A stretch of DNA of 54,800 nucleotides from Actinomycetota bacterium (GTDB lineage: Bacteria; Actinomycetota; Actinomycetes; Nanopelagicales; Nanopelagicaceae), in assembly GCA_016870835.1 (NCBI GenBank), contig VGAG01000004.1, positions 1 to 54,800 on the forward strand, in the 5' to 3' direction. Under the pieces are notes generated by a model. The model saw only the letters and a list, made by a program, of their open reading frames with translations. It was not told where the DNA came from and did no database searches. The position numbers and the translations under genes are program-made. Of the stretch, positions 1 to 16,827 are shown in pieces (within the stretch, counting starts at the first letter, position 1; the number at the start of each line of letters is the position of its first letter).

Positions 1-637
1 CATCAATAATCACATCATCGCTATCAGGAGCTCTGCCTGACTTATCTAGACCTGCGAACTCGGTTTCGTTTGGAATCACCCAATCTGAATTCTTGAGTAG
101 TTCTGGTAAAAGAGGTGCGAAGGGCGCTGGGTTAAGAATTGTTGTAATACCTCTAGCGCGAGCGGCGGCAAAAGCAGCGGCGCTAACTTCTTGGCGAATT
201 TCCAATTGCCCAACCAAAACATCAATTTCAGAAATTTCTGAGAGCGCGCTTTGAACCTGTGGGACAGTCATTGCAAAGTTCGCACCAGGTACACAGATGA
301 TTCGATTGGAGCCATCAGCCTCAACCCAGATTGGAGCTACTCCGCTGGGTCCTGGAACTCGATTTACATAAGTTGTATCGATTCCCTGTTCTTTAAAGTT
401 CTTCAAAGTTGTTTCACCAAAGACATCATCGCCAAGGGTGTTAATCATTTTTACTTTTGCCCCAAAACGGCTAGACATAACAGCCTGATTGGCCCCTTTA
501 CCCCCAAAGCCAACGGAAAATGAGTCGCCAATCACAGTTTCTCCTGAGTTTGGAGCTCGATTTACATAAGCAATCATGTCGGTCATCGTGCTTCCGACTA
601 CAACGATTTCTGGGGGTTTTTGGTTTATGGCGCTCAC
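1..637 (-). CDS. rbsK: Ribokinase / PfkB-family carbohydrate kinase (3' end truncated by window edge)
   Basis: Minus-strand translation from GTG at 637: VSAINQKPPEIVVVGSTMTDMIAYVNRAPNSGETVIGDSFSVGFGGKGANQAVMSSRFGAKVKMINTLGDDVFG..., typical ribokinase N-terminus with GGKGANQAV; reading frame open to position 1. Confidence 0.85.
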   Translation of the reverse strand, partial: MSAINQKPPEIVVVGSTMTDMIAYVNRAPNSGETVIGDSFSVGFGGKGANQAVMSSRFGAKVKMINTLGDDVFGETTLKNFKEQGIDTTYVNRVPGPSGVAPIWVEADGSNRIICVPGANFAMTVPQVQSALSEISEIDVLVGQLEIRQEVSAAAFAAARARGITTILNPAPFAPLLPELLKNSDWVIPNETEFAGLDKSGRAPDSDDVIID

Positions 638-655
638 TGCGGCGTACCCTTTCGG

Positions 656-1939
656 CTAGACAATCTTTGTTACAACAAGTGGCAATCGCTCCACTGGCGA
701 AGTCCCGATAACAACGGCTCCGCTCAAAGCCGCCTCTGCTCTTTCAAATCGCGCTGCTTCATCGGTATGAAGGGTGAATATGGGATCGCCCTTATTTACT
801 TGACTTCCAGGTTTGGCATGAATCTCGATGCCCGCGCCGGCTTGAACTTTCTCGCCCTGTCGCTCTCTGCCGGCACCTAAACGCCAGACCGAAATACCGA
901 CTTGAAGTGCATTCATACTCGAGATAACGCCGCTCTCTTCTGCGGTGATTAATTTCTTTTCTCTAGCGATTGGTAGTGCAGCATTTGGATCTCCGCCCTG
1001 CGCTCTGACCATTCGGCGCCAATGGTCCATAGCGCTGCCATTTTTTAGCGCCGACTCCGGATCTTTTCCACTCACTCCCGCTGCATCAAGCATCTCCTGT
1101 GCGAGAAGGATAGTAAGTTCAACTACATCGGCTGGTCCGCCACCGGCAAGAACTTCAAGAGACTCGCGAACTTCAAGTGCATTTCCGGCGGTAAGTCCTA
1201 GTGGAACATCCATCGCTGTTACTAAAGCGCGAGTCGTTACACCAGCTCGTTTCCCTAACTCAACCATGGCGTTTGCTAACCGTCTTGCATCTTCTGGTTC
1301 AGACATAAAGGCGCCATTACCAGTTTTAACATCGAGAACTAGCGCGCTAGTTCCTTCTGCAATTTTCTTGCTCATAATTGACGAAGCAATCAGAGGAATT
1401 GAGGGTACGGTGCCTGTTACATCACGGAGCGCATAGAGTTTCTTATCAGCTGGTGCTAATCCACTTCCAGCGGCACAGATAACTGCGCCACAATCTTGAA
1501 GGGCCTTTAACATTTCCGGATTTGTTAAAGATGCTCGCCAACCGGGAATTGATTCCATCTTGTCCAATGTGCCTCCGGTATGTCCCAATCCCCTTCCCGA
1601 AAGTTGCGGGACTGCTGCTCCACAGGCCGCAACTAAAGGTGCTAATGGAAGAGTTATCTTGTCTCCGACGCCACCCGTTGAGTGTTTATCGACTGTGGGT
1701 CTATCAAGCGCACTCCAATTCATGCGCTCACCACTTTTAATCATGGCATCTGTCCAACGAGATAACTCACGAGAGTTCATTCCATTTAATAAAATAGTCA
1801 TGAGGAGTGCAGACATCTGTTCATCAGCGACTACCCCGCGCACATAGGCGTTAATTACCCAATCAATCTGGGAATCGCTTAATTCTTGCCGATCCCGTTT
1901 CACAGAAATAATTTCTACCGCTGTAAATGACTCCACCAT
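656..1939 (-). CDS. deoA: Thymidine / pyrimidine-nucleoside phosphorylase
   Basis: 427 aa; KHSTGGVGDKITLPLAPLVAACG and GHTGGTLDKMESIPG motifs. Confidence 0.95.
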   Translation of the reverse strand: MVESFTAVEIISVKRDRQELSDSQIDWVINAYVRGVVADEQMSALLMTILLNGMNSRELSRWTDAMIKSGERMNWSALDRPTVDKHSTGGVGDKITLPLAPLVAACGAAVPQLSGRGLGHTGGTLDKMESIPGWRASLTNPEMLKALQDCGAVICAAGSGLAPADKKLYALRDVTGTVPSIPLIASSIMSKKIAEGTSALVLDVKTGNGAFMSEPEDARRLANAMVELGKRAGVTTRALVTAMDVPLGLTAGNALEVRESLEVLAGGGPADVVELTILLAQEMLDAAGVSGKDPESALKNGSAMDHWRRMVRAQGGDPNAALPIAREKKLITAEESGVISSMNALQVGISVWRLGAGRERQGEKVQAGAGIEIHAKPGSQVNKGDPIFTLHTDEAARFERAEAALSGAVVIGTSPVERLPLVVTKIV

Positions 1940-1941
1940 AA

Positions 1942-2328
1942 TTAACTTAAATCTTTAGGACCAAAACTCCAAGGGAGAATAAATTCCATATTCTTTGGCC
2001 CTTCTGGAGTCAGTACCTCCAGCGAGTCACCGCCATGTTCATAAAGGAGTTGGCGGCATCGGCCACACGGTGATAGGAGGCTTCCCTCTTTATCCACGCA
2101 GACCACAGCGAGAAGACGACCGCCACCGCTCATAATCAAGTCGGATATCAGAGAACATTCGGCACAGAGCGTTAGGCCATAACTAGCATTCTCAACATTG
2201 CAGCCACTCACAAAGCGGCCATCGCTAACTAGAGCAGCTACACCTACGGGAAACTTTGAGTACGGGGAATATGACTGCTTCATGGCTTGAGTAGCTTTAA
2301 GTTTAAGCGCTTCCCAATCTATATTCAT
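1942..2328 (-). CDS. cdd: Cytidine deaminase
   Basis: 128 aa; C-x-E-x-S / PCGRCRQLL zinc-site motifs (VENASYGLTLCAECS, SPCGRCRQ). Confidence 0.93.
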   Translation of the reverse strand: MNIDWEALKLKATQAMKQSYSPYSKFPVGVAALVSDGRFVSGCNVENASYGLTLCAECSLISDLIMSGGGRLLAVVCVDKEGSLLSPCGRCRQLLYEHGGDSLEVLTPEGPKNMEFILPWSFGPKDLS

Positions 2329-4292
2329 CGTGGAAATCCTGCCGCAACGCCGCCGTCTACGGGGATGACAGCACCCGTTGTTCGTGATGATTCATCGGAA
2401 AGTAAATATGCAACCGAGCGCGCAACATCCTCGGAGCGCACTCGTGCTTTGAGGATATTCCGCTTAGCATAAAAATCCTCTAACTCTTCCGGTCTTACAC
2501 CATGCTCTTTTGCGCGCTGCTCTCTAACGCCACCCTCCCAGAGTTTGCTGTTATCAAACACCGCGTCGGGATTCAATGCGTTAGCTCTAACTCCTATCGA
2601 TCCACCTTCGAGAGCTGAGATTCTCATGAGTTGGATCATCCCAGCTTTAGATACGGAGTAGCCTCCAAAGCCAGCGCCAGGTGAAAATGCATTCTTGCTA
2701 GCGATGTAAACCAAACTCCCGCCCATGCTTTGGACGCGTAGCGCACGCAAACCAAATTTAGTTAGCAAGAAGGCAGAAGTTAAATTGACTTCAAGTCCCT
2801 TTCGCCAAGATTCAGCGGACAATTCTTCTATCATCCCTGAAACGGGGATTCCGGCATTTAAAACTAAGCCGTCTAATCCACCGAAGTTATCTACTGTCTT
2901 GGCAATCGTTTCTTCTGCGACTTTCTCTTCGCTCTGATCACCAGAGACGATCAACGGCGCGGGGTACTTAAGTCGGATGAATTCAGCTTCCGTTTCGCTA
3001 AGTCCCTTTTCATCAATATCTGCAAGTACAACGCTCGCTCCGAGGGAGCCAAGATAAAGCGCTATGCCTCGACCTATTCCGCTTCCGGCGCCAGTAACAA
3101 CAAATATGGAACCGGTGAACTTAGGAGCAGCAGGCTTTAGCTTCAATTTATAGAGCTCCATGGGCCAATAATCGAAACCGAAGATCTCATTATCTGGAAG
3201 AGTTCGTGGATGTGCGAAACAATCTACGACTGTCGCCCCGACGGTGTGTGAATGAAATGCGATATCCGCCAACATCTTTGTCTCGGCAATGCTTGCTCCA
3301 GCGCCGATCATTCCAAGCCCCGGAACCAGGAAGACCCTCGGATCATTTCCATGACTTGTGTACCCAGGTGGCAGAAGAGACTTATTCGCTTCAAAGTACG
3401 CGGCGTACTTTCTTTGATAACTTTCCACATCAGTGTCAAGCGTTTCTGCAGTTAAGAGACATGACCACGGTCGGATTCTTAACATATGATCTGCGCTTGC
3501 AGCACCTGCAGCTAACACCTTGGTGAGATCTGTACGATCCGCGATTGCTCTTAGTCGATTATCGCGACGAAGAATTTGGCGTCTCTTTAGCTTGCCTCGT
3601 AGACGCAACAATAGTTCAAAGATATCGCGATCAGAGAGATCCTCGTGGCGAAAATCTGGCTTTGGCGGTTTGGCAAGAGTCCGCAAAAATGAATCAGCCT
3701 TTGCTACAGCAGCAAGAGTCTTTTCATAACATTTATCACTATCTTCATCCCACACAATCAATCCATGATGGGCGAGAATTACACCTTCATAAGAGTTCAA
3801 CTCACTTACTAACTTTGAAAGTGTAAATCCAGGGCGAATCCACTCGACAAATGCAAATCCATCACCGAGTGCTTCCTCAACGGCAGCTTTGCCATCTACA
3901 TGATTCGTTAGTGCGCAAATCACATCTGCATGAACATGATCTATATGGCGTGCTGGAAGAAAGGCGTGAAGTAAGGTTTCGATTGAAGGACGACGCGCCG
4001 TTGGATCAACAAGGGCTCTAGTCACATAATCGACCATGGTTTCGTCATCGAGCTCATCTTTCTTATGTAATGCAACAAGTTCTTCCAGGTAGAGCGCGGG
4101 ATAATCAACGGCTTCCCCGTACTGCATATCTGCGCCCGATCCCTTGACCCAGAGAACATCACGATTTCTACCGAGATAATCCCTTATCTCACCTTTCGCT
4201 GAAGTGTTTCCACCGCCATAGACCACTAGTGATTGGTCACTCCCAATTTTTTTTGATCGTGCAACTAATTTCTCTAACTCCGGGTACTTCAT
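2325..4292 (-). CDS. Bifunctional class II aldolase / short-chain dehydrogenase fusion (RhaD/RhaEW-YuxG type)
   Basis: 655 aa; N-terminal class II aldolase (GGGNTSAKG, HIDHVHADV, AHHGLIVW) plus C-terminal SDR (VTGAGSGIGRGIA, YSVSKAG). 4-nt overlaps with both neighbours. Confidence 0.9.
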   Translation of the reverse strand: MKYPELEKLVARSKKIGSDQSLVVYGGGNTSAKGEIRDYLGRNRDVLWVKGSGADMQYGEAVDYPALYLEELVALHKKDELDDETMVDYVTRALVDPTARRPSIETLLHAFLPARHIDHVHADVICALTNHVDGKAAVEEALGDGFAFVEWIRPGFTLSKLVSELNSYEGVILAHHGLIVWDEDSDKCYEKTLAAVAKADSFLRTLAKPPKPDFRHEDLSDRDIFELLLRLRGKLKRRQILRRDNRLRAIADRTDLTKVLAAGAASADHMLRIRPWSCLLTAETLDTDVESYQRKYAAYFEANKSLLPPGYTSHGNDPRVFLVPGLGMIGAGASIAETKMLADIAFHSHTVGATVVDCFAHPRTLPDNEIFGFDYWPMELYKLKLKPAAPKFTGSIFVVTGAGSGIGRGIALYLGSLGASVVLADIDEKGLSETEAEFIRLKYPAPLIVSGDQSEEKVAEETIAKTVDNFGGLDGLVLNAGIPVSGMIEELSAESWRKGLEVNLTSAFLLTKFGLRALRVQSMGGSLVYIASKNAFSPGAGFGGYSVSKAGMIQLMRISALEGGSIGVRANALNPDAVFDNSKLWEGGVREQRAKEHGVRPEELEDFYAKRNILKARVRSEDVARSVAYLLSDESSRTTGAVIPVDGGVAAGFPR

Positions 4293-5299
4293 AGTGAGAC
4301 TCCCGAACTAACTTCATAGACCTTCTCATCTGTTACAACGGCTTTTATATAACGAGCAGGCGTTACATCAAAAGCTGGGTTATAGGTTCGAGAACCAAAC
4401 GGAGCAGTTTGCACTCCAGCTATTTGGGTCACCTCGTCATCTCCTCTAAATTCAATCTCAATCTCATTGCCAGTTGCGATAGATCTATCGACCGTAGATT
4501 CAGGCGCTATTACAAGAAATGGAACACCTACTTGATTTGCCGAAACAGCGACTCCCAACGAACCAATTTTGTTTGCTGAATCGCCATTTCTCGCGATTCT
4601 ATCGGCGCCAATCAAAACCGCATCAATCAATCCGCTGAAAAGAGCACTAGCCGCTGCGCCATCCGGGAGAATCCGATAAGGAATTCCTGCTTTTTGTAGT
4701 TCCCATGCAGTCAGCCGAGAGCCTTGTAATAACGGTCTAGTTTCATCGGCAAGGACTTCCTCAATCAATCCTCTGGAGTGGAGTTCCTGGACTACACCAA
4801 GCGCAGTGCCCCACTCGGTGGTCGCAAGAGCCCCTGTGTTGCAGTGAGTAAGAATCCTCAGCTTGCGATTTCCTAAAATCTCAACTAAAAAATCAGCGCC
4901 GAGTCTTCCCATCTCACGGCAAGAGACGGCATCTTTAGCTGCAATCTCAAGTGCGCGCTGCAACACTTCATTTGAGCCTTTGGATATCAATGGCTCTACC
5001 TCACTGACTCCCCAGGCGAGGTTTACTGCCGTAGGTCTGGCATTCCTTAGCGCAAAAATCTCACGCTCGATAAGGGCAGTCGACCAGCCCTCTCGCTCAC
5101 TATTCTTAAGAATTAGAGCTACGCCAAGAGCTCCGGCTACTCCGAGCGCAGGTGCACCTCGAATACATAGACGTTGAATTGCGGTGACAAGTTCGGCGGG
5201 CCTTGTGATTACTAACTCTTCTACTGATAACGGCAACTTGGTCTGGTCAAGAAGATGAATACTTCCGCCGCCCGCTTCACTCCACGAGATAGTCCGCAT
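4289..5299 (-). CDS. mtnA: MtnA-like S-methyl-5-thioribose-1-phosphate (or ribose-1-phosphate type) isomerase
   Basis: 336 aa; catalytic THCNTGALAT and IGADRIARNGDSANKIGS motifs intact. Confidence 0.9.
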   Translation of the reverse strand: MRTISWSEAGGGSIHLLDQTKLPLSVEELVITRPAELVTAIQRLCIRGAPALGVAGALGVALILKNSEREGWSTALIEREIFALRNARPTAVNLAWGVSEVEPLISKGSNEVLQRALEIAAKDAVSCREMGRLGADFLVEILGNRKLRILTHCNTGALATTEWGTALGVVQELHSRGLIEEVLADETRPLLQGSRLTAWELQKAGIPYRILPDGAAASALFSGLIDAVLIGADRIARNGDSANKIGSLGVAVSANQVGVPFLVIAPESTVDRSIATGNEIEIEFRGDDEVTQIAGVQTAPFGSRTYNPAFDVTPARYIKAVVTDEKVYEVSSGVSL

Positions 5300-5305
5300 G
5301 GCACT

Positions 5306-5333
5306 AGCCTAAACCCTGACTTTATAGTTCCAA
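5306..5333 (-). promoter_or_regulatory. Putative leaderless promoter of the mtnA-aldolase-cdd-deoA operon (TTGGAA-16-TAGGCT-6-ATG)
   Basis: Reverse complement of 5306-5311 is TAGGCT, of 5328-5333 is TTGGAA; ATG begins 6 nt after the -10. Confidence 0.55.
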
Positions 5334-5466
5334 GTCTTTCTTTAGGTATGGGTATAACAGAATCGTGATGTGACTCGCCAATCTAGCCTTGGGGGGGGGT
5401 TGCTTGGCGCACTTATCTCTTAGGTAGGATTCCTCGAGCCGACAAGCGCTTTCCCTGCGTAGTTGA

Positions 5467-5499
5467 TTGCGCGCAAGTTAGTTGGAAATCGATCGATTT
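5467..5499. promoter_or_regulatory. Two perfect palindromes (TTGCGCGCAA 5467-5476; AAATCGATCGATTT 5486-5499) in the divergent intergenic region; candidate operators
   Basis: Both equal their own reverse complement; centres 21 bp apart. Confidence 0.45.
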
Positions 5500-5502
5500 A
5501 AA

Positions 5503-5526
5503 CTCTGGTTCATCTCAAAACCAGAG
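5503..5526 (+). promoter_or_regulatory. Hairpin CTCTGGTT-catctcaa-AACCAGAG in the bmpA leader
   Basis: Perfect 8-bp stem just upstream of the GAGAGGAG ribosome-binding site. Confidence 0.5.
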
Positions 5527-5544
5527 ACTCTTGAGAGGAGATTC

Positions 5545-6576
5545 ATGTTCAGAAGGTTTACTACCCTTGTAGTTGTTACAGCACTGACAGCTCTAGGTTT
5601 TGCAACTCCGGCGAAAGCTGCATCGGAAAGTGATTGTGGCACCGGAAGACTCTTCTGTATCGGATTAGTTACCGATACTGGAAAAGTTGATGACAAATCA
5701 TTTAACCAATCTGCCTGGATGGGTGCGCAAATGGCAGCGAAGGTTAATGGTGGCTTCGCTAAGTACATTGAAACTACTGACCCAAAGGACTACGCCAAGA
5801 ATATTGGGCAATTCGCTGACAAAAAGTACAATGTGATTATTGGTGTTGGCTTCCTAATGGCAGAAGCGATGACAACTGCTGCAGCTAAGTATCCAAAGAT
5901 TAAGTTCATTGGAGTAGATCAATTCCAAGGTACTGCTGTTCCGAATCTAACGGGTCTAGTTTTCCCTGAAGATAAGGCCGGCTTCCTCGCAGGGTACCTA
6001 GCTGGACACTTGACTAAGACTGGGAAGACTGGCGCAGTTCTTGGAACTGAAGTCGTCCCACCGGTTCGATATTTTGGAGAGGGATACCGTAATGGTGTGG
6101 CCTACGCTGCAAAAGAACTTGGCAAGAAATATCCCGCATCAAAATTAATTTATCACGCCCCAGACAATGCATTCAACGATCCGGCTTGGGGAGCTACAAC
6201 TGCACAGCAACTCCTCTCCCAGGGTTTTGACGTCATCTTCGGCGCAGGCGGTAACACCGGAAATGGTGCGCTCCTTCGCGTTGCCAAGAAAAAAGGCGCA
6301 TATTGCATTGGCGTTGACAGCGATCAATGGGGAACTCTTCCAGAAGCTCGCCCTTGCCTCGTAACTTCAGCAATGAAGTTAATCGACAAGGGAGTTGCCG
6401 CTGTTGTAGCAAGTATTGTGGATGGAACAGATAAGGGCGGAAACTATTTTGGAGCTGTAGGTCTTGCTCCATTACATGATTTCGCAAAGAAAGTTCCAGC
6501 TGCTTATCAAGCTAAGTTGAAGGCCGTCACTCCAAAGGTTCTTAAGGGAACAATTCCGACTGGAGTTAAGCTCTAA
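5545..6576 (+). CDS. BMP-family nucleoside ABC transporter substrate-binding protein
   Basis: MFRRFTTLVVVTALTALGFATPAKA signal peptide then IGLVTDTGKVDDKSFNQSAW BMP motif; GAGAGGAG RBS supports start at 5545 rather than 5482. Confidence 0.9.
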   Translation: MFRRFTTLVVVTALTALGFATPAKAASESDCGTGRLFCIGLVTDTGKVDDKSFNQSAWMGAQMAAKVNGGFAKYIETTDPKDYAKNIGQFADKKYNVIIGVGFLMAEAMTTAAAKYPKIKFIGVDQFQGTAVPNLTGLVFPEDKAGFLAGYLAGHLTKTGKTGAVLGTEVVPPVRYFGEGYRNGVAYAAKELGKKYPASKLIYHAPDNAFNDPAWGATTAQQLLSQGFDVIFGAGGNTGNGALLRVAKKKGAYCIGVDSDQWGTLPEARPCLVTSAMKLIDKGVAAVVASIVDGTDKGGNYFGAVGLAPLHDFAKKVPAAYQAKLKAVTPKVLKGTIPTGVKL

Positions 6577-6597
6577 GACGTAAGGACCCTCGTAAAG

Positions 6598-6633
6598 AAA
6601 AGGAGACACGCTCAAAAGAGCGTGTCTCCTTTT
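6598..6633 (+). terminator. Rho-independent terminator after the substrate-binding protein gene
   Basis: AAAAGGAGACACGCTC-aaaa-GAGCGTGTCTCCTTTT, 16-bp perfect stem, T-rich tail. Confidence 0.85.
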
Positions 6634-6676
6634 GGTTCAAAAAGAGAAGTTGATTTGAGAGTATTCGGAGAAAATC

Positions 6677-7741
6677 ATGGATGCTAAGCAAGGCAAGAAT
6701 TTTGATCTAAGTTCAGTCTTTCTGCCTTTCCTGTCTATCATTGTAGCGTTAGCTTTTGGTGGTCTACTGGTTCTCATTCAGGGTATTCAACCCCTTCAGG
6801 CTTATAGGGTTTTATTTGCTACTGCATTTGGCTCGTTTGATGGAATCGCACTGACACTCGCTAAGGCAACGCCATTGATTCTAAGTGGCCTAGCAGTTGC
6901 TATTTGTTTTAGAGCCGGTTTATTTAATATTGGGGCACAGGGCCAGTTAATTTCGGGGGCTTTAGCCTCTGCTTGGGCTGGTTACACATTCGTTGGCCTA
7001 CCAACTCTAGTTCATATTCCGCTTGCACTGATTTATGGTGCTTTCTTTGGTGCAATTGTTGCATTAGTTGCTGGTGCCTTAAAAGCCTATAGAGGTGTAC
7101 ACGAAGTGATTACAACTATTATGTTGAACAGCATTGTGATAGCGCTGGCAGACTACTTAACTAGCACTCCCTTTAAAGAGCCCGATCAACCGCTAACGAG
7201 AACTCCAAAAATTCAAGAATCCGCTCAGATGCCTGATTTTTTGGGGCTTCCGTTGGGATTCTTTTTGGCAATAGGACTCTCCGTAACTCTCTGGTGGATG
7301 ATGAGAAAGACCACCACTGGATTTAGTATTGAAACAATCGGGCGAAACAAGAACGCCGGCTGGTATGCAGGTATTTCCGTGAAGAAGACCGTGATTATAA
7401 GTATGCTCATTGGTGGAGCAGTAGCTGGCATTGCAGGAGCCGTTGAGACTCTAAGCATCACTGGAAGATTTGAGCCAGCCTTCAATGCTGGATTGGGATT
7501 CGATGGAATAACTGTTGCGTTGCTGGGACGCGCAAATCCCCTTGGAGTGATTCCTGCCGCAATACTCATTGGAGGAATGCGTGCTAGTGCGTCAACTGTT
7601 CAGTTTGAAGCAGGCGTAGCACCGGAGTTAGTAGACCTTCTTTTGGCCATGATTCTCTTCTTTGTCACTGCTCCTTTGTTGGCAAAATTCTTCAAAAGTC
7701 GAAAAGAAAACGTGGCGATGACGAGTGGCTGGAGTAATTGA
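6677..7741 (+). CDS. Nucleoside ABC transporter permease (YufP-like)
   Basis: 354 aa polytopic; GLAVAICFRAGLFNIGAQGQ motif. Confidence 0.9.
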   Translation: MDAKQGKNFDLSSVFLPFLSIIVALAFGGLLVLIQGIQPLQAYRVLFATAFGSFDGIALTLAKATPLILSGLAVAICFRAGLFNIGAQGQLISGALASAWAGYTFVGLPTLVHIPLALIYGAFFGAIVALVAGALKAYRGVHEVITTIMLNSIVIALADYLTSTPFKEPDQPLTRTPKIQESAQMPDFLGLPLGFFLAIGLSVTLWWMMRKTTTGFSIETIGRNKNAGWYAGISVKKTVIISMLIGGAVAGIAGAVETLSITGRFEPAFNAGLGFDGITVALLGRANPLGVIPAAILIGGMRASASTVQFEAGVAPELVDLLLAMILFFVTAPLLAKFFKSRKENVAMTSGWSN

Positions 7742-8721
7742 TGAAGTTGCGTTCCATTCATTACTTACCGTTGGCATTCGTTGTAACTTTTGCCTATTTC
7801 TATCGACAAGACGGATTGGTAGCAACTTCCGTTCTTTACACTGCGATTCAGTTTGCACTTCCCTTAGCCCTTGCTGCAATGGTTGGAATCATGTGTGAGC
7901 GGACTGGAATTGTAAACATCGGTATTGAGGGAACCATGTTGATATCAGCGTTCACAGCATTTTTTGCGGGAGCAATTCTGCAAAATACCGGTAGAGGAAT
8001 GATTGTAGGAGTATTAACAGGCGTAATTATGGGATTGCTATTAGCGGTCATGGCAATCACTTGGAAGATGGATCAGATTATTGCTGGTGTAATCCTTAAC
8101 ATCTTGGCAGCTGGAGTGACCTCCTTCTATTACCGCCAGAACTATTCGATTCCCTCAACCCTAGATCCAATTGACTTGCCAGTGGTTGGAGCATGGCCAA
8201 TCCTGGGCCCAGTGCTCTCTTTTCATGGGCCGATAACATATTTTGGAGTCCTAATTGTTTTCACACTCTGGTTTGCTCTATATAAAACTTCTTGGGGTTT
8301 ACGCTCTCGGGCGGTCGGCGAGCACCCTTCCAGTGCCGATACAGCGGGTGTATCTGTAACCAGGCTTCGATACTTGAATGTCACCATTGCTGGGGCGGTG
8401 GGTGGGCTTGCCGGTTCTTACCTAGCTCTTGAAGCAGTTGGAATATTTGAGCGTGGGTTCACCGCTGGAAAAGGCTTCACGGCGCTGGCAATTATGATAT
8501 TTGGCAGATGGAATCCGTTAGGTGCATTTGCTGCTGCTCTGTTCTTCGGCTTAACTCAAGCGTTGACTAATCAACTGATGATTGCTGAAGTTGTAGAGAT
8601 TCCGTTCCAATTCGTGACTATGCTTCCCTACATTCTGACAATCCTGATTCTAGCGATTTCTGCAGGAAAAGTTCGTCCACCGGCCGCTGAAGGAATTCCT
8701 TACGAAAAGGAAAAGTCATGA
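7741..8721 (+). CDS. Nucleoside ABC transporter permease (YufQ-like)
   Basis: ERTGIVNIGIEGTML motif; overlaps upstream stop codon. Confidence 0.9.
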   Translation: MKLRSIHYLPLAFVVTFAYFYRQDGLVATSVLYTAIQFALPLALAAMVGIMCERTGIVNIGIEGTMLISAFTAFFAGAILQNTGRGMIVGVLTGVIMGLLLAVMAITWKMDQIIAGVILNILAAGVTSFYYRQNYSIPSTLDPIDLPVVGAWPILGPVLSFHGPITYFGVLIVFTLWFALYKTSWGLRSRAVGEHPSSADTAGVSVTRLRYLNVTIAGAVGGLAGSYLALEAVGIFERGFTAGKGFTALAIMIFGRWNPLGAFAAALFFGLTQALTNQLMIAEVVEIPFQFVTMLPYILTILILAISAGKVRPPAAEGIPYEKEKS

Positions 8722-10226
8722 AAACTCTCCTAGAAATTGAAGGAGTTAGTAAGATTTTTGGTTCCGTCATTGCAAACGAGGACATCTCCCTTTCCATAAA
8801 GGAAGGGGAAATCTTGGCCTTACTTGGGGAAAATGGCGCTGGAAAGTCCACCTTGGTCAAAGCTGTCTTTGGCCTAGTTAAGCCAGATTCTGGGAGCATC
8901 AAAATTGATGGGGAAGTGATGGAGAGCGGAGACACTGCTGCAGCCATTGCCCAAGGCGTAGGTATGGTTCATCAACACTTTCAACTTGTTCCCGTTATGA
9001 GCGTTACAGAGAATCTAATACTCGGAGATGAACCAAAGAAATTTGGTGTAGTAAGTATGAAAAGGGCCAGATCAGAAGTCCTTAAATTATCTAAGCATTT
9101 CAGCTTGGAGGTAAATCCTGATGCCAAGATAGAGGATCTACCCGTAGGAATGGCTCAAAGAGTTGAGATTCTAAAGGCGCTGCGGCGTGAAGTTAAATTG
9201 CTGATATTGGACGAACCAACCGCAGTTTTGACGCCTCAAGAGACCGATGAATTGCTTGAAGTGCTTCGAAAACTTGCCAAGCGCGGGGTCGGAATCCTCT
9301 TTATAACTCATAAATTGCGCGAGGTAATGGCCGTTGCAGATCGAATTGCAGTTCTTCGTGGCGGACGGCTTGTGGGAACAACGACCCCCAAAGATAGTGA
9401 TGAATCAAAATTGGCCCAGATGATGGTGGGCCGTGATGTAGTCCTTAGTGTGGCGAAGAGTCCAGCCAAGCCAGAGCAAGTGCTGCTCGCCGTAAAAAAC
9501 CTTAGAGTAAATGATGACAGAAAGATAGAAGCAGTAAAAGATCTATCTCTGGAGGTTCGCTCTGGTGAAATTCTTGGAGTTGCGGGAGTTGAAGGAAATG
9601 GACAAAGAGAATTAGTTGAGGCAATTTGTAGCATGCGCTCTCGCTTAAGCGGTGAAGTGTTTGTTAAAGGGAAGAGCGTCCCTAATATGAATCCGAGAGC
9701 GGCTCACCTTTCAGGGGTCTCTCACATACCAGAAGATCGTGAGAAACATGGCCTGGTAAATTCTTACTCTATTGCGGATAACTTGGTTCTAAATAGGTTC
9801 AATGAAGTTCCCTTTTCAAGAGGTTGGATTAGAGACCTGGAGAAAGTTGCTCAGAATGGCAGTGAGTTAGTCGATAGATTTGATATTAGAGCTACATCAG
9901 CCTCGGTATCCGCAGCTTCTCTCTCCGGCGGAAACAAGCAAAAGGTAGTTGTAGCGCGTGAATTGAGTCAGCAGTTAGATGTAGTTGTTGCATCGCAGCC
10001 CACAAGAGGAGTGGATGTAGGTTCTATTGAGTTCATACATAAACAATTAATTGCCGCCCGTGATTCTGGGTCTGCAGTGCTATTGGTTTCGGCAGAGCTT
10101 GATGAAATCCTCTCTCTTGCAGACAGAATTGCTGTGATATCAGATGGAAAAATTGTTGCCACCTTTAGTTCTGCGGAGGCAGACAGAAACACCATTGGTC
10201 GACTAATGGCAGGTCTTAGCGCTTAG
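8718..10226 (+). CDS. Nucleoside ABC transporter ATPase with two nucleotide-binding domains (YufO-like)
   Basis: 502 aa; GENGAGKSTLVKAVFG Walker A, second domain with LSGGNKQKVVVAREL. Confidence 0.93.
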   Translation: MKTLLEIEGVSKIFGSVIANEDISLSIKEGEILALLGENGAGKSTLVKAVFGLVKPDSGSIKIDGEVMESGDTAAAIAQGVGMVHQHFQLVPVMSVTENLILGDEPKKFGVVSMKRARSEVLKLSKHFSLEVNPDAKIEDLPVGMAQRVEILKALRREVKLLILDEPTAVLTPQETDELLEVLRKLAKRGVGILFITHKLREVMAVADRIAVLRGGRLVGTTTPKDSDESKLAQMMVGRDVVLSVAKSPAKPEQVLLAVKNLRVNDDRKIEAVKDLSLEVRSGEILGVAGVEGNGQRELVEAICSMRSRLSGEVFVKGKSVPNMNPRAAHLSGVSHIPEDREKHGLVNSYSIADNLVLNRFNEVPFSRGWIRDLEKVAQNGSELVDRFDIRATSASVSAASLSGGNKQKVVVARELSQQLDVVVASQPTRGVDVGSIEFIHKQLIAARDSGSAVLLVSAELDEILSLADRIAVISDGKIVATFSSAEADRNTIGRLMAGLSA

Positions 10227-10228
10227 GG

Positions 10229-10984
10229 ATGGCAGGCAAAATAGGAATCATCGCCGGCACCGGTTTTTACGACTTACCGGGGCTTAAAAACACGAATCGT
10301 GAGGAGTTGAATACCAGTTACGGCGGCGCACTCCTTTTGAGTGGGACTTGGGAAGGCGTTGAGATTGCATTCCTAACGCGCCACGGAGTAAAGCACTCGG
10401 TACCGCCACATAGAATCAATTATCGAGCAAATGTAAGAGCGATGAAGGATCTAGAAGTATCTGCCATTATTGCTATCAATGTGGTTGGAGGAATTGACTC
10501 TAACCTAAATCCTGGTGATATCTCACTCATTGATGACTTCGTTGACTTTACTTCTGGCCGTGCAAGTACTTTCTTCGATGGAACCGGGCCCGAGGGCGTC
10601 CAACATATCGATATGACAAGCGTTTACGATAAGAATCTGCAAGCTCTTTTAATTGCGAGCGCGACTTCCCAGGGAATCAAGTTAACTACTGGCGGTGTAT
10701 ATGCCGGCTTCAATGGACCGCGCTTTGAAACTCCTGCAGAGATTCGATTTGCTCGGCTTGCTGGTGCGACTGTTGTGGGAATGACGGGTTGCCCAGAAGC
10801 TCCATTGGCCCGGGAGTTAGGAATTCCATTTACTTCAATTGCTCTTGTGGTGAATCCGGCGGCGGGACTTGGCCATGGCGAGATCACTATGGATGAGATA
10901 AATGCCGCTCTTGATTCAGGTAAGAGTAAGGTGCTAAATGTAATTGCAGGAGCGCTACCGAATGTGGCAAAGCTCTATGTTTGA
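10229..10984 (+). CDS. mtnP: MTA/MTI-type nucleoside phosphorylase (MtnP family)
   Basis: 251 aa; IGIIAGTGFYDLPG, GVYAGFNGPRFETPAEIR, MTGCPEAPLARELG, VVNPAAGLG. Confidence 0.88.
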   Translation: MAGKIGIIAGTGFYDLPGLKNTNREELNTSYGGALLLSGTWEGVEIAFLTRHGVKHSVPPHRINYRANVRAMKDLEVSAIIAINVVGGIDSNLNPGDISLIDDFVDFTSGRASTFFDGTGPEGVQHIDMTSVYDKNLQALLIASATSQGIKLTTGGVYAGFNGPRFETPAEIRFARLAGATVVGMTGCPEAPLARELGIPFTSIALVVNPAAGLGHGEITMDEINAALDSGKSKVLNVIAGALPNVAKLYV

Positions 10985-12269
10985 CTTGGCAATTAATGGT
11001 GCAGAATTAATCGTAACTTGTGACGAAAAGAATCGAGTACTCTCAAAATCGTCAATAGGAATCACTGACGGGGTTATTGCTGAGGTTAGTTCAGCTCCAC
11101 TTCCCGCTGGAAAGACTTTTGATGCTCAAGGTAAGTTGATTTCACCAGGCTTAATTAATACGCACACGCACCTCGCAATGACGCTCTTTCGTGGCTGGGC
11201 CGAAGGGGTCGATCTTCAGGGTTTCCTTGAAAGAGTTTGGGCGGCTGAAGGCGCGATTATGAATCCGGAAACTGCTGAACTTGGTACCACCTTAGGAGCC
11301 CTAGAAGCGCTATTGGGGGGAACAACGACCGCACTTGATATGTACCTGTTTCCAGATGCTGCTCATAAGGGTGCTGTTCGAGCTGGGCTTCGACATATCT
11401 CGGGGCCTATTTTCTTTGACTTTGCGGGTTTAGATGGATTGGAGTGGGCTGATCGAATCAAATTTGCGAGATCGTGGAACGAGAGGATGAAAGGGATTGG
11501 TGGACCCGAAGTTCCTCTTTACCTCATGCCCCATTCCACGTATACCTGTTCGCCCGAACATCTCCATGAGATAGCAAGTCTTGCCCACGAGCTTGGCGCA
11601 TCTATTCATATCCATGCCTCAGAAAATATTAAAGAGAATGACGATGTGGCGAGAAGGTTTGGAAAAACCCCGACTGAAATACTAAGTGAGACTGGAATAT
11701 TGAATCAGCATACGGTTTATGGCCACGGCGTCCACTTATCCAATTCAGACTTAGAGTCGCTCGGTAATAACGGTATTGCACACTGCCCCGGAAGTAACTT
11801 GAAATTGGCTAGCGGTATTGCAGATGTTACCGAGTATGTCTCCAGGGGCGTGAAGGTCGGGCTTGGTACAGATGGTTGCTCCTCCAGTAATGACCTGGAT
11901 ATGTGGAGTGTCATGCGCTTAGCCGGATATTTAATCTCTCAATCACGTGGGCCTACGAAGTCAAATGCAGAAAAAATATTTCGAATGGCGACAATTGAAG
12001 GAGCTGCAACTCTCGGCATGGAGAAGAGAGTTGGAAGCATCGAGATTGGAAAGCGAGCAGACTTGATTGCCATTGACCTCAATGCTCCACACCTCATCCC
12101 ATTACACAATGTATTTGCGCAACTGGTCTACGCGGCTGGCCGATCTGATGTTAGTGATGTCTGGGTCGACGGTCATAATGTAATTCAAAATCGAAAATCG
12201 ACTTTGATTGATTTTTCCGCCTTAATGCTCCAAGTTCAAGATTGCATCACGGCTTTGACAAGTAAATAA
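10977..12269 (+). CDS. mtaD: MTA/SAH deaminase-type amidohydrolase (TRZ/ATZ family)
   Basis: NTHTHLAMTLFRG, HIHASEN, LGTDGCSSSNDLDMW; ATG at 10977 overlaps the mtnP stop (ORF track start at 10944 is TTG). Confidence 0.85.
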   Translation: MFDLAINGAELIVTCDEKNRVLSKSSIGITDGVIAEVSSAPLPAGKTFDAQGKLISPGLINTHTHLAMTLFRGWAEGVDLQGFLERVWAAEGAIMNPETAELGTTLGALEALLGGTTTALDMYLFPDAAHKGAVRAGLRHISGPIFFDFAGLDGLEWADRIKFARSWNERMKGIGGPEVPLYLMPHSTYTCSPEHLHEIASLAHELGASIHIHASENIKENDDVARRFGKTPTEILSETGILNQHTVYGHGVHLSNSDLESLGNNGIAHCPGSNLKLASGIADVTEYVSRGVKVGLGTDGCSSSNDLDMWSVMRLAGYLISQSRGPTKSNAEKIFRMATIEGAATLGMEKRVGSIEIGKRADLIAIDLNAPHLIPLHNVFAQLVYAAGRSDVSDVWVDGHNVIQNRKSTLIDFSALMLQVQDCITALTSK

Positions 12270-12686
12270 ATGACGATTCAATCCATAATCCAGAAGTTGG
12301 GACTGTCTCCGCTCGCTGGCGAGGGTGGGTTGTGGTCCCCGATTTATCTAGATGACACCAGTAACGCGATTTACTTCGCAATGATCGCACCCGATTTCTC
12401 CGCCTGGCATCGAATTCCAGAGCCCGAACTATGGATTCATATAGCTGGCTCGCCGGTAGAGCTTTTTACAGTTGAAGATAAGGTTCTGGTTCGAAATATT
12501 CTTGATGGTACATCTAGCAATTTCACTTACCGAGTCCCGGCGCAAACATGGATGGCAGCGCGACCCATTGGCGATTGGTCTCTCTTAATCTGTACATTGA
12601 CCCCACCATTCTCAAAAATGGAATTACTCGATAAGTCAGCTCCAATCGCTAAGGAACTCAATCTGCCAGGATTGTTTCATGGCTAA
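12270..12686 (+). CDS. Cupin, DUF985 family
   Basis: 138 aa; LGLSPLAGEGGLWSP...SNAIYFAMIAPDFSAWHRI...ELWIHIAGSPVEL...VPAQTWMAARP pattern of the DUF985 cupin fold. Confidence 0.7.
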   Translation: MTIQSIIQKLGLSPLAGEGGLWSPIYLDDTSNAIYFAMIAPDFSAWHRIPEPELWIHIAGSPVELFTVEDKVLVRNILDGTSSNFTYRVPAQTWMAARPIGDWSLLICTLTPPFSKMELLDKSAPIAKELNLPGLFHG

Positions 12687-13356
12687 GGTATTGATTACGG
12701 GAGCTTCCGGCCTTATCGGGAGAGCGTTAGTCGCCAGATTTCTTACAGATGGTTGGGAGGTATCTGCACAAATCCGGCGAGACGATGAATTCGAGCTTGG
12801 TAAATCAGCAAGAGTTATCTCATTTGATTTGGAAAGGCAAAGTGGCGGCGAACTTATAAATGAGGTAGGAGTTGTGGATCTTGTGGTCAATAATGCAGCC
12901 AATCAAGAGCAACTCCAACTATCTGACCGAGAGGGCGCAATCCGCCAATTTATTGTTAATGCAATTGCCCCGACTGAGATTGCTGCTGCCGCAAAGAAGA
13001 AGGGCGTTGCCCAGCTGATTAATATCTCATCAGTTGAGGCTCTCAGCGCAAGGGCTGGACATGAATACTATGGTGCGACTAAATCGGCCTTGGAATCTCT
13101 AACAAAAAGCCTTGCAATCTCTCTGGCTCCCATGCGGCTACTCTCAATTAGATTGGGTCTTATCGGCGATAGTGCACTTTCAACCCGCTGGCCTGAGGGT
13201 GTTGCGGCTTGGAAAGAAGCGACCCCGCTTGCGCGATATGCAGCTCCAGAGGAAGTGGCTGATTTTGTCGCACTACTAAGCTCAGATTCACTCCGTTTTG
13301 TGACTGGCTCTACCTTTGATTTCGACGGTGGCAAGAGCGCTAACCCTGGTTGGTAA
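12679..13356 (+). CDS. Short-chain dehydrogenase/reductase
   Basis: 225 aa; LITGASGLIGRALV, VVNNAAN, YYGATKSALESL. Confidence 0.88.
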   Translation: MAKVLITGASGLIGRALVARFLTDGWEVSAQIRRDDEFELGKSARVISFDLERQSGGELINEVGVVDLVVNNAANQEQLQLSDREGAIRQFIVNAIAPTEIAAAAKKKGVAQLINISSVEALSARAGHEYYGATKSALESLTKSLAISLAPMRLLSIRLGLIGDSALSTRWPEGVAAWKEATPLARYAAPEEVADFVALLSSDSLRFVTGSTFDFDGGKSANPGW

Positions 13357-13373: not shown

Positions 13374-14339
13374 CTATTGCGCCTTCAGGTCAATCTTAGG
13401 AAAGCTCTTTCGTAGCGCAGCAATCTGACTTGAAGTAAATCCAGTCGCAAGATTGAGACGATAGCCGCCATTGGTGAATCCATAGATTCGACCAAAGACC
13501 CCACGAGCGCCATCCACTTCATCAATCAAGGCCCGGTTCTCCAGGCCCAATTTCACAAGTTGCGAGATTGGTTTATCTAACCGCTTCTCTAAGACCGCAA
13601 TTACTCGTTTGCTGGAGCCCATCTTTGCAAAGTACTGATCTGGATTTCGTGCGATATAGAAGGTCCGAGGGATCCTCTTAGTTACCGCTTCAAAGATCAC
13701 GGCATCTTTATCCCAGAGTGAATAGACCACATCGACTTGGCCTAGCTCTGTCATCAGATTGGCACTATCTCCCTCAAAGTTAACTTTTACAACTTGCATA
13801 CCCTTAGCACCCGATTCAAATGCAGCATTTAGCGCATCAGATCCTGAAATTATCGCGACCTTTTTACTTTTGCTTCGCATCGCTGCGATAGTCCCAGCAA
13901 TACGGGCAGCTTGAAGTTCATCAAAGTAGATATTTGAGATATTCAGTTGTGCCAAGTTTTGATCATTGATTATCGCAAATTGAGTATCTGGGTATTCCAT
14001 GGATACCCGTCTCACCGTCTCTCGATATCCAGCACCTACTGTGATTATTAAGGTGTAACCACTCTTAGCGAGAAATCTAATCTTTGTGATTCGGTCAAGA
14101 GCTGTTCCACTTGTTGGCAACTCTCGCACAAACGGTTCAACTAAGTTGTAGCGCTTCTTTGCAATTTCAAGAGCTGCGCTAACTGCATCATTAAAGCCAC
14201 CATCTCCTTTGAATCCAATGTCGTAAGCAACCGCGATTCTCGGCGTAGGTTCTTCAGCGGCAAGAGCGCTGGTAAATGAAATTGTCGCAGTGAAGAGAAT
14301 TATTGAAAGTAGAAAGGAAAACTTTCTTCGAAGGCCCAT
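13374..14339 (-). CDS. Second, divergent BMP-family substrate-binding-like secreted protein
   Basis: Signal peptide MGLRRKFSFLLSIILFTATISFTSALA; IAVAYDIGFKGDGGFNDAVSAAL; no adjacent ABC genes. Start placed at ATG 14339. Confidence 0.78.
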   Translation of the reverse strand: MGLRRKFSFLLSIILFTATISFTSALAAEEPTPRIAVAYDIGFKGDGGFNDAVSAALEIAKKRYNLVEPFVRELPTSGTALDRITKIRFLAKSGYTLIITVGAGYRETVRRVSMEYPDTQFAIINDQNLAQLNISNIYFDELQAARIAGTIAAMRSKSKKVAIISGSDALNAAFESGAKGMQVVKVNFEGDSANLMTELGQVDVVYSLWDKDAVIFEAVTKRIPRTFYIARNPDQYFAKMGSSKRVIAVLEKRLDKPISQLVKLGLENRALIDEVDGARGVFGRIYGFTNGGYRLNLATGFTSSQIAALRKSFPKIDLKAQ

Positions 14340-14340
14340 C

Positions 14341-15351
14341 TCAGCCCTTAAGTTGGGAGCCAGGTACCAATCCAAGCGCGTCATAAGTCTTCTTTAACGT
14401 CTTAGCTGCCACTTCACGCGCCTTTGCACTTCCCTCTTCCAAGATAGAAAGTAGCGACTGCTCATCTTTAAGAAGTTCCTCGGTTCGAGCCTTTACTGGG
14501 GCAAAGAAGGAGGTAACTACTTCTGCGACCGCTCCTTTAAAGTCACCATAACCTTTGCCGGCAAACTCATTTTCTAGGCTAGTAATACTCTTCCCAGAGA
14601 GCGCCGAATGAATAGTTAGTAGATTTGAGATTCCAGGCTTGTTCTTCTCATCAAACTTAACATCTTTTCCAGTGTCGGTGACTGCGCTCTTTATCTTCTT
14701 TGCATTTACATCAGAGCTATCCAAGATGTCTATTACGCCTGAGTTAGAAGCCGCTGACTTACTCATCTTTGAGTTTGGATCCTGTAAGTCATTGATCTTG
14801 GCAGCGCTCTTGATGATGTGTGCATCTGGGATAGTGAATACCGGACCATACTTGGCATTGAATCGTTGCGCCAAATCTCTAGTTAATTCAATATGTTGTC
14901 TCTGGTCTTCCCCGACTGGGACGCTATTTGCTTGATAGAGCAAAATGTCAGCAGCTTGAAGGATTGGATATGTAAAAAGTCCGACAACAGTTCGATCCGA
15001 TCCAGATTTTGCTGATTTATCTTTGAACTGTGTCATGCGACTAGCTTCACCAAAACCGGTGATGCACTCGAATATCCAACCTAACTGATTGTGTTCACTT
15101 AAATGAGATTGAACAAAAAGAGTACATTTTTTAGGATCGAGTCCTATCGCGATTAATTGGGCGGCGGCAGCGAGTGTGCGACGTCGAAGTATCGCTGGAT
15201 CGGTCTCGATTGTGAGTGCATGTAAATCAACAATGCAATAGAACGCGTCGTTTCCCTCTTGAAGTTCAACCCACTGTTTTACAGCACCTAAATAATTTCC
15301 CAAGTGGAGTGAATCAGCGGTGGGCTGGATTCCAGAGAGTATCCGTTTCAC
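14341..15351 (-). CDS. trpS: Tryptophanyl-tRNA synthetase
   Basis: [31 protein letters not shown] (KMSKS); GTG start. Confidence 0.96.
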
Positions 15352-16675: not shown

Positions 16676-16827
16676 GGGGCCCTAAGGGTAGCCGAGGGGC
16701 GAGAATCCTGGCTAAACCCCCTTCCCTCACGCTCACCTCTCGCATAACCTTCGCCCGTTCCCCACTAAACCTTGCTTCATCCAACGGACCGTCGGGCACG
16801 TACCTGCCCGGAGAAGGAAGTGAAAAC

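Follow-up and report, generated by a model that had tools for sequence, protein, structure and literature searches.

A candidate importer-fed 5'-deoxynucleoside shunt to dihydroxyacetone phosphate in a freshwater Nanopelagicales genome

Two divergent operons of an actinobacterial genome (assembly GCA_016870835.1, contig VGAG01000004.1) are probably best explained, on sequence comparison, as a dihydroxyacetone phosphate (DHAP) shunt for 5'-deoxynucleosides such as 5'-methylthioadenosine (MTA), fed by a nucleoside importer. The window, that is the whole stretch of DNA analysed, is one contig of 54.8 kb from a genome of 1.01 Mb in 49 contigs that is 76% complete. The host is a streamlined freshwater member of the Nanopelagicales, one of the acI-type actinobacteria, a group said to be more abundant than any other bacteria in most freshwater lakes (PMC5301498). 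Its nearest named relatives are the freshwater Actinomycetota metagenome-assembled genomes (MAGs) L046 and L048, with Candidatus Nanopelagicales (L050) and Aquiluna (L052) more distant.

In the pathway that we infer, an ATP-binding cassette (ABC) importer of the BMP type would bring the nucleoside into the cell, and an amidohydrolase would deaminate it, converting MTA to 5'-methylthioinosine (MTI) or 5'-deoxyadenosine (5dAdo) to 5'-deoxyinosine. A phosphorylase of the MTI type would yield hypoxanthine and (methylthio/deoxy)ribose-1-phosphate, which MtnA would isomerise to the ribulose-1-phosphate form. The aldolase half of a fusion protein would cleave this to DHAP and methylthioacetaldehyde or acetaldehyde, and the short-chain dehydrogenase/reductase (SDR) fused to it, or the second SDR of the locus (SDR2), would oxidise or reduce the aldehyde. 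The genes concerned, and one further member of the plus-strand operon, are as follows.

2325..4292, minus strand: class II aldolase-SDR fusion, predicted (methylthio/deoxy)ribulose-1-phosphate aldolase and aldehyde dehydrogenase/reductase (PF00596 and adh_short_C2)
4289..5299, minus strand: mtnA, predicted 5-methylthioribose-1-phosphate (5-deoxyribose-1-phosphate) isomerase (TIGR00512, 373.5 bits, cut-off 279)
5482..6576, plus strand: BMP-family nucleoside-binding lipoprotein (PF02608, 147.5 bits)
6677..7741, plus strand: ABC permease 1 (PF02653, 164 bits)
7738..8721, plus strand: ABC permease 2, similar to BMP-type permeases (NF047928, 174.8 bits, under the cut-off of 465)
8718..10226, plus strand: double-domain ABC ATPase (PF00005, two stretches)
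10229..10984, plus strand: MTAP-family phosphorylase of the 6-oxopurine type, predicted 5'-methylthioinosine/5'-deoxyinosine phosphorylase (NF006599)
10944..12269, plus strand: amidohydrolase, predicted MTA/5'-deoxyadenosine deaminase (PF01979; translation more probably starts at an ATG near 10977)
12270..12686, plus strand: Cupin_5 (DUF985) protein (PF06172), a neighbour kept in most copies of the block
12679..13356, plus strand: second, stand-alone SDR, SDR2 (SDR models), a neighbour kept in the block

All of the genes named in the original prediction are present with intact frames, as judged from open frames and profile searches, and the tight divergent packing that it described was found as well. 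The two operons are separated by 182 bp; junctions measure -4, -4 and 2 bp from mtnA through deoA, and -4, -4, 2, an overlap, 0 and -8 bp from permease 1 through SDR2. The plus-strand operon carries the Cupin_5 protein and the second SDR in addition to the genes first listed. The Cupin_5 gene (12270-12686) accompanies the block in most genera, and was not seen adjoining it in g2.

An order-wide survey of 121 genomes found mtnA in 23, dispersed across nine genera. A phosphorylase with 53-68% identity is present in 22 of these 23 and in none of the 98 genomes without mtnA (Fisher p ~3e-23), and the deaminase (at least 53% identity, one a fragment) in 22 of the 23 and only 2 of the 98; these counts are uncorrected for kinship, but span nine genera, most of which contain both states. 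G037, G041, G092, G027, G020 and L048, a named MAG, show the same divergent layout; because the block recurs in other genomes, the locus is neither a chance arrangement nor an assembly artefact. Elsewhere, the block of importer, phosphorylase and deaminase is separated from mtnA with its gene content unchanged. G044 has on a single strand, consecutively, a ribose-type ABC importer, mtnK, a split transketolase pair, a RuBisCO-like protein (RLP), the phosphorylase, the deaminase, the Cupin_5 protein, an SDR and the BMP importer (L215:3003-18669), which ties these genes to one pathway. Thus, the linkage on which the prediction depended is kept in relatives.

G022 is the only mtnA-bearing genome that lacks the phosphorylase; there, mtnK lies immediately downstream of mtnA and the fusion, which makes phosphorylase and kinase alternative feeders. 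This alternation matches known clusters for 5-deoxyribose and methylthioribose, which have a kinase or a phosphorylase (PMC6079011). In five mtnA-bearing relatives the kinase gene is present in place of the phosphorylase gene or alongside it; its co-occurrence alone is not significant (5 of 23 versus 0 of 13 genomes, p 0.14), and its weight as evidence comes from adjacency. No mtnK was found in the window's own genome, which was queried by single-family searches.

The phosphorylase had been assigned to the MtnP family; membership of the MTAP family stands, but the protein fails the MTAP cut-off (242.8 versus 274.9 bits) and instead passes that of the S-methyl-5'-thioinosine phosphorylase model NF006599 (254.7 versus 223). 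Its closest structure in the PDB is 3ozb (194 bits, the runner-up scoring 142), with which it shares the Glu and Asn motifs (FETPAE and VVNPAAG) of the base motif FE..N, where MTA phosphorylases carry Ser and Asp. Both proteins have Met at a position that is His in the ordinary purine nucleoside phosphorylases (PNPs) of the relatives; we take this His to be the PNP residue that contacts the 5'-hydroxyl, and the assignment of residues to pockets is likewise our assumption from PNP and MTAP structures. In the window and 17 relatives the position is Met, Thr or Leu, never His. The amidohydrolase is closest in the PDB to 4f0r, a deaminase of MTA and S-adenosylhomocysteine, then to 4dzh and 4dyk/4gbd, the last pair presumably belonging to the Pseudomonas aeruginosa route from MTA to MTI. 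An MTI-type phosphorylase together with a homolog of MTA deaminases makes MTA to MTI to methylthioribose-1-phosphate the likely route. Considering the phosphorylase type, the pocket residues, the similarity of the deaminase and the known route from MTA to MTI, the most likely substrate is MTA or 5dAdo and not a plain nucleoside.

These observations bear on a variant that had also been proposed, in which the importer takes up ordinary nucleosides, phosphorolysis releases ribose-1-phosphate, and this passes through MtnA and the aldolase to DHAP and glycolaldehyde. The sharing of an operon with cdd and deoA fits this variant, as does the failure to find an ordinary PNP in g1 genomes. So do four genomes of g2 (G002, G009, G012 and G058), in which the phosphorylase has His at the position discussed and neither an ordinary PNP nor mtnK was found over cut-off; no ordinary PNP was found in exactly these four of the mtnA-bearing g2 genomes, and their phosphorylases (L164-L167) may possibly represent a return to PNP activity, perhaps with a shunt fed by ribose-1-phosphate. 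At the window's locus, however, the variant is disfavoured and seems unlikely: its phosphorylase, of the methylthioinosine type, has Met in place of His, a 5-methylthioribose kinase substitutes for or accompanies it in five relatives, and ordinary nucleosides have a conventional exit in deoC, an aldehyde dehydrogenase and a mutase of the phosphoglucomutase/phosphomannomutase (PGM/PMM) type.

The BMP lipoprotein, the two permeases and the double ATPase are encoded in one operon, as would be expected of a nucleoside ABC importer of the BMP/PnrA type, and the closest structures to the lipoprotein are 7x0r and 2fqw (TmpC/PnrA). A B6-type BMP transporter was considered and rejected (39.7 versus 400 bits). 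A second, orphan BMP-like lipoprotein gene lies at 13374-14384 beside trpS, a position kept in several relatives. The importer genes are part of the conserved block, the 36 genomes searched yielded no spermidine synthase, and sulfate assimilation is missing from acI strains (PMC5301498); exogenous MTA would therefore be useful for both carbon and sulfur. An alternative is that these enzymes clear away MTA and 5dAdo made by the cell itself, a housekeeping task rather than a means of nutrition; the same kinds of enzyme do so in Bacillus thuringiensis (PMC6079011), and radical SAM enzymes, the usual source of 5dAdo, are to be expected of any genome. This alternative also seems unlikely, since the conserved block includes an importer, the lack of a detected spermidine synthase implies that no MTA is derived from polyamines, and mtnA is missing from 98 of the 121 genomes, a patchiness like that of nutrient genes.

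The product of mtnA is closest in the PDB to the MtnA structures 1t9k and 2yrf (248 and 231 bits), versus 84 bits for ribose-1,5-bisphosphate isomerase; the latter identity was rejected, as its model also scores under cut-off. It is the only PF01008 protein in its genome. Since it passes the cut-off of a methionine-salvage model, it might have fed MtnB, MtnC and MtnD encoded elsewhere, an objection that the original prediction had raised against itself. This is very improbable: no acireductone dioxygenase (MtnD) was found in any of 36 genomes, comprising the window's own, 76% complete, and relatives up to 100% complete, and the fusion is the only class II aldolase-fold protein found in its genome, which leaves no separate MtnB. 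Classical methionine salvage was rejected because the dioxygenase was not found in these 36 genomes.

A class II aldolase adjoins mtnA in every complete neighbourhood seen, usually as the fusion. The class II catalytic Glu, the three zinc-binding His and the SDR active site are intact in the fusion, and residues E105, H119, H121 and H176 as well as Y545 and K549 of the SDR domain are invariant across 12 homologs. In G041 and G092 the place of the fusion after mtnA is taken by a stand-alone FucA/DrdA-like aldolase of 216-217 amino acids; these two are 78% identical to each other and only 25% identical to the fusion over 68 amino acids. Of the individual hints that aldol cleavage is the step required, this replacement in place is the strongest. 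That MtnA and a class II aldolase would form a DHAP shunt here is thus well supported by comparative genomics.

The nearest curated models to the fusion are those of RhaD-type bifunctional enzymes, and so it could in principle be a rhamnulose- or fuculose-1-phosphate aldolase-dehydrogenase with mtnA next to it incidentally. This reading, too, is very improbable. The fusion is under the cut-off of every RhaD-type model (490 versus 568 bits for TIGR02632 and 535 versus 1014 for NF006190, the RhaD-ADH/PRK08324 models), and no rhamnose isomerase over cut-off was found in its genome (best match 30 bits, cut-off 531). G013 has both a fusion adjacent to rhaI (isomerase 619 bits, cut-off 531), 34% identical to that of the window, and a separate fusion adjacent to mtnA that is 67% identical. 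Fusions of other phyla with identity of 39% or less never have mtnA nearby. A rhamnose function was rejected on account of the separate rhaI-linked fusion of G013: rhamnose catabolism, in genomes that have it, relies on another paralog, and the possibility that the aldolase acts on rhamnulose or fuculose phosphates did not overturn the prediction. The fusion of the window would gain a functional annotation, its present name being derived from rhamnose metabolism.

Several points weigh against an importer-fed shunt for MTA or 5dAdo. Homology does not settle specificity. That the operon also includes cdd and deoA suggests that the importer carries ordinary nucleosides too, and, with no ordinary PNP found in genera g1 (the window's) and g10, the phosphorylase might also serve inosine and guanosine. 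Endogenous 5dAdo from radical SAM enzymes is a possible source of substrate. The aldolase half of the fusion is far from the characterised Ald2 and DrdA, with only 54 bits to PF00596, and genome completeness is only 76%. The linkage, the co-occurrence, the exchanges of enzymes and the lack of a detected competing pathway nevertheless argue for the importer-fed shunt of MtnA and a class II aldolase, as predicted.

Three further genes follow the fusion on the minus strand.

1942..2328, minus strand: cdd, cytidine deaminase (NF004064, 175 bits, cut-off 74)
656..1939, minus strand: deoA/pdp, thymidine/pyrimidine-nucleoside phosphorylase (NF004490, 618.6 bits, cut-off 269)
2..637, minus strand: ribokinase (rbsK), an open frame truncated at the contig end and just outside the range first described (656 to 13,356)

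The genes cdd, deoA and rbsK had been grouped with the shunt, but belong outside it, to ordinary nucleoside catabolism: at another place in the genome, a conventional route for deoxyribose is encoded by deoC and the genes of an aldehyde dehydrogenase and a PGM/PMM-type mutase. These three genes adjoin a ribokinase of 311 amino acids on contig C3, to which the ribokinase of the window is 97% identical. The C3 copy is also beside another BMP-type ABC importer, and may reflect strain mixture or recent duplication. A scan with Rfam for regulatory RNA found nothing within the locus. Outside it, at 16767-16826, lies an msiK RNA motif (RF01747, 61.7 bits), which in actinobacteria regulates the genes of sugar-import ATPases in cis.

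Relatives beyond the clade of the window, which comprises g1 and G092, have a larger set of genes. RLP is present in 18 of the 19 mtnA-bearing genomes outside this clade and in none of the 13 genomes without mtnA that were tested; that of G027 is most similar to 3qfw. Several relatives have a split pair similar to transketolase and 1-deoxyxylulose-5-phosphate synthase (DXS) between the fusion and RLP. The mtnA-fusion pair, the split transketolase/DXS-like pair and RLP, often with mtnK and a ribose-type ABC importer, were noted at L030:10706-16972, L037:4797-9806, L039:2998-13000, L049:9992-20368 and L052:4033-16970. In g2 genomes (L032:11431-15081) the mtnA-fusion-RLP genes adjoin homologs of an ApnL-like lactonase, a Gfo/Idh-type dehydrogenase and mercaptopyruvate sulfurtransferase. 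The window's genus yielded neither RLP nor a close copy of the split transketolase pair when these were sought; with no RLP found in G000, G037, G041 or G092, these were not classed as having an MTA-isoprenoid shunt. In a tree of MtnA, rooted only at its midpoint, rows with the RLP/transketolase arrangements are among the deepest, and the window's clade, which does not have them, is on a well-supported branch, which suggests that the window may have a reduced form of a larger cassette.

Tentatively, and with considerable doubt, mtnA and the aldolase could be regarded as the hub of an undescribed two-branch catabolism of MTA and methylthioribose in freshwater actinobacteria, with the window as a one-branch form. 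The fused SDR would complete the aldolase branch; in many relatives, RLP and the split DXS/transketolase-like thiamine pyrophosphate enzyme would make up the second, the latter perhaps cleaving 1-methylthioxylulose-5-phosphate with release of methanethiol, as a methylthio analog of phosphoketolase. If so, dissolved MTA would supply carbon as well as reduced sulfur to these bacteria, which do not assimilate sulfate. None of the papers searched describes the mtnA-fusion/transketolase/RLP cassette.

The pathway itself and its use of exogenous substrates are already known from Escherichia coli and Rhodopseudomonas palustris. E. coli grows on exogenous MTA or 5dAdo via MtnK, MtnA and Ald2 with a permease gene in the operon (PMC10986504, PMC12632272). 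The system of E. coli ATCC 25922 (mtnK-mtnA-ald2 and permease) resembles that predicted here in producing DHAP and an aldehyde through MtnA and a class II aldolase, in drawing on MTA or 5dAdo from outside as a carbon source, and in having a transporter gene in the operon; it has a nucleosidase and a kinase where the window has a deaminase, an MTI-type phosphorylase and a BMP-type ABC importer, and the aldolase of the window belongs to another subfamily and is joined to an SDR. A phosphorylase-type shunt (MtnP-MtnA-Ald2) is also found in R. palustris alongside the MTA-isoprenoid shunt, with an alcohol dehydrogenase presumed to act on methylthioacetaldehyde (PMC5893883), and the relatives of the window likewise pair the aldolase with RLP. 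The R. palustris system differs in its MTA phosphorylase without prior deamination, its separate aldolase and its role in sulfur salvage, and the parts of PMC5893883 drawn on here mention no dedicated importer; the window has no RLP. The drdKIA genes of B. thuringiensis and related 5-deoxyribose clusters, some with sugar transporters, combine a kinase or phosphorylase with an MtnA paralog and a class II aldolase, but drdKIA has a stand-alone FucA-like aldolase, a kinase as feeder and a detoxification role, unlike the window (PMC6079011). Fusions of rhamnulose-1-phosphate aldolase to an SDR (TIGR02632, PRK08324) have the same domain architecture as that of the window, at about 34-39% identity, below model cut-offs and in the context of rhamnose genes rather than mtnA.

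In P. aeruginosa, the product of the MTI route goes into methionine salvage. The deaminase and phosphorylase of the window match the first steps of that route (PDB 3ozb), in which a deaminase is followed by an MTI phosphorylase that yields hypoxanthine and methylthioribose-1-phosphate (Guan et al., as cited in PMC6302742). No paper describing the combination found in the window came up in a literature search, which is not proof of absence. New here are the entry by a deaminase and an MTI-type phosphorylase, the BMP importer, the fusion of the presumed dehydrogenase to the aldolase, and the host lineage; the attached branch of RLP and split transketolase is new in the relatives only. If the reading of an importer-fed shunt is true, it names a concrete dissolved substrate that acI-type actinobacteria take from other organisms for carbon and perhaps sulfur, and the DHAP shunt gains both an entry through deamination and MTI and an aldolase-dehydrogenase fusion.

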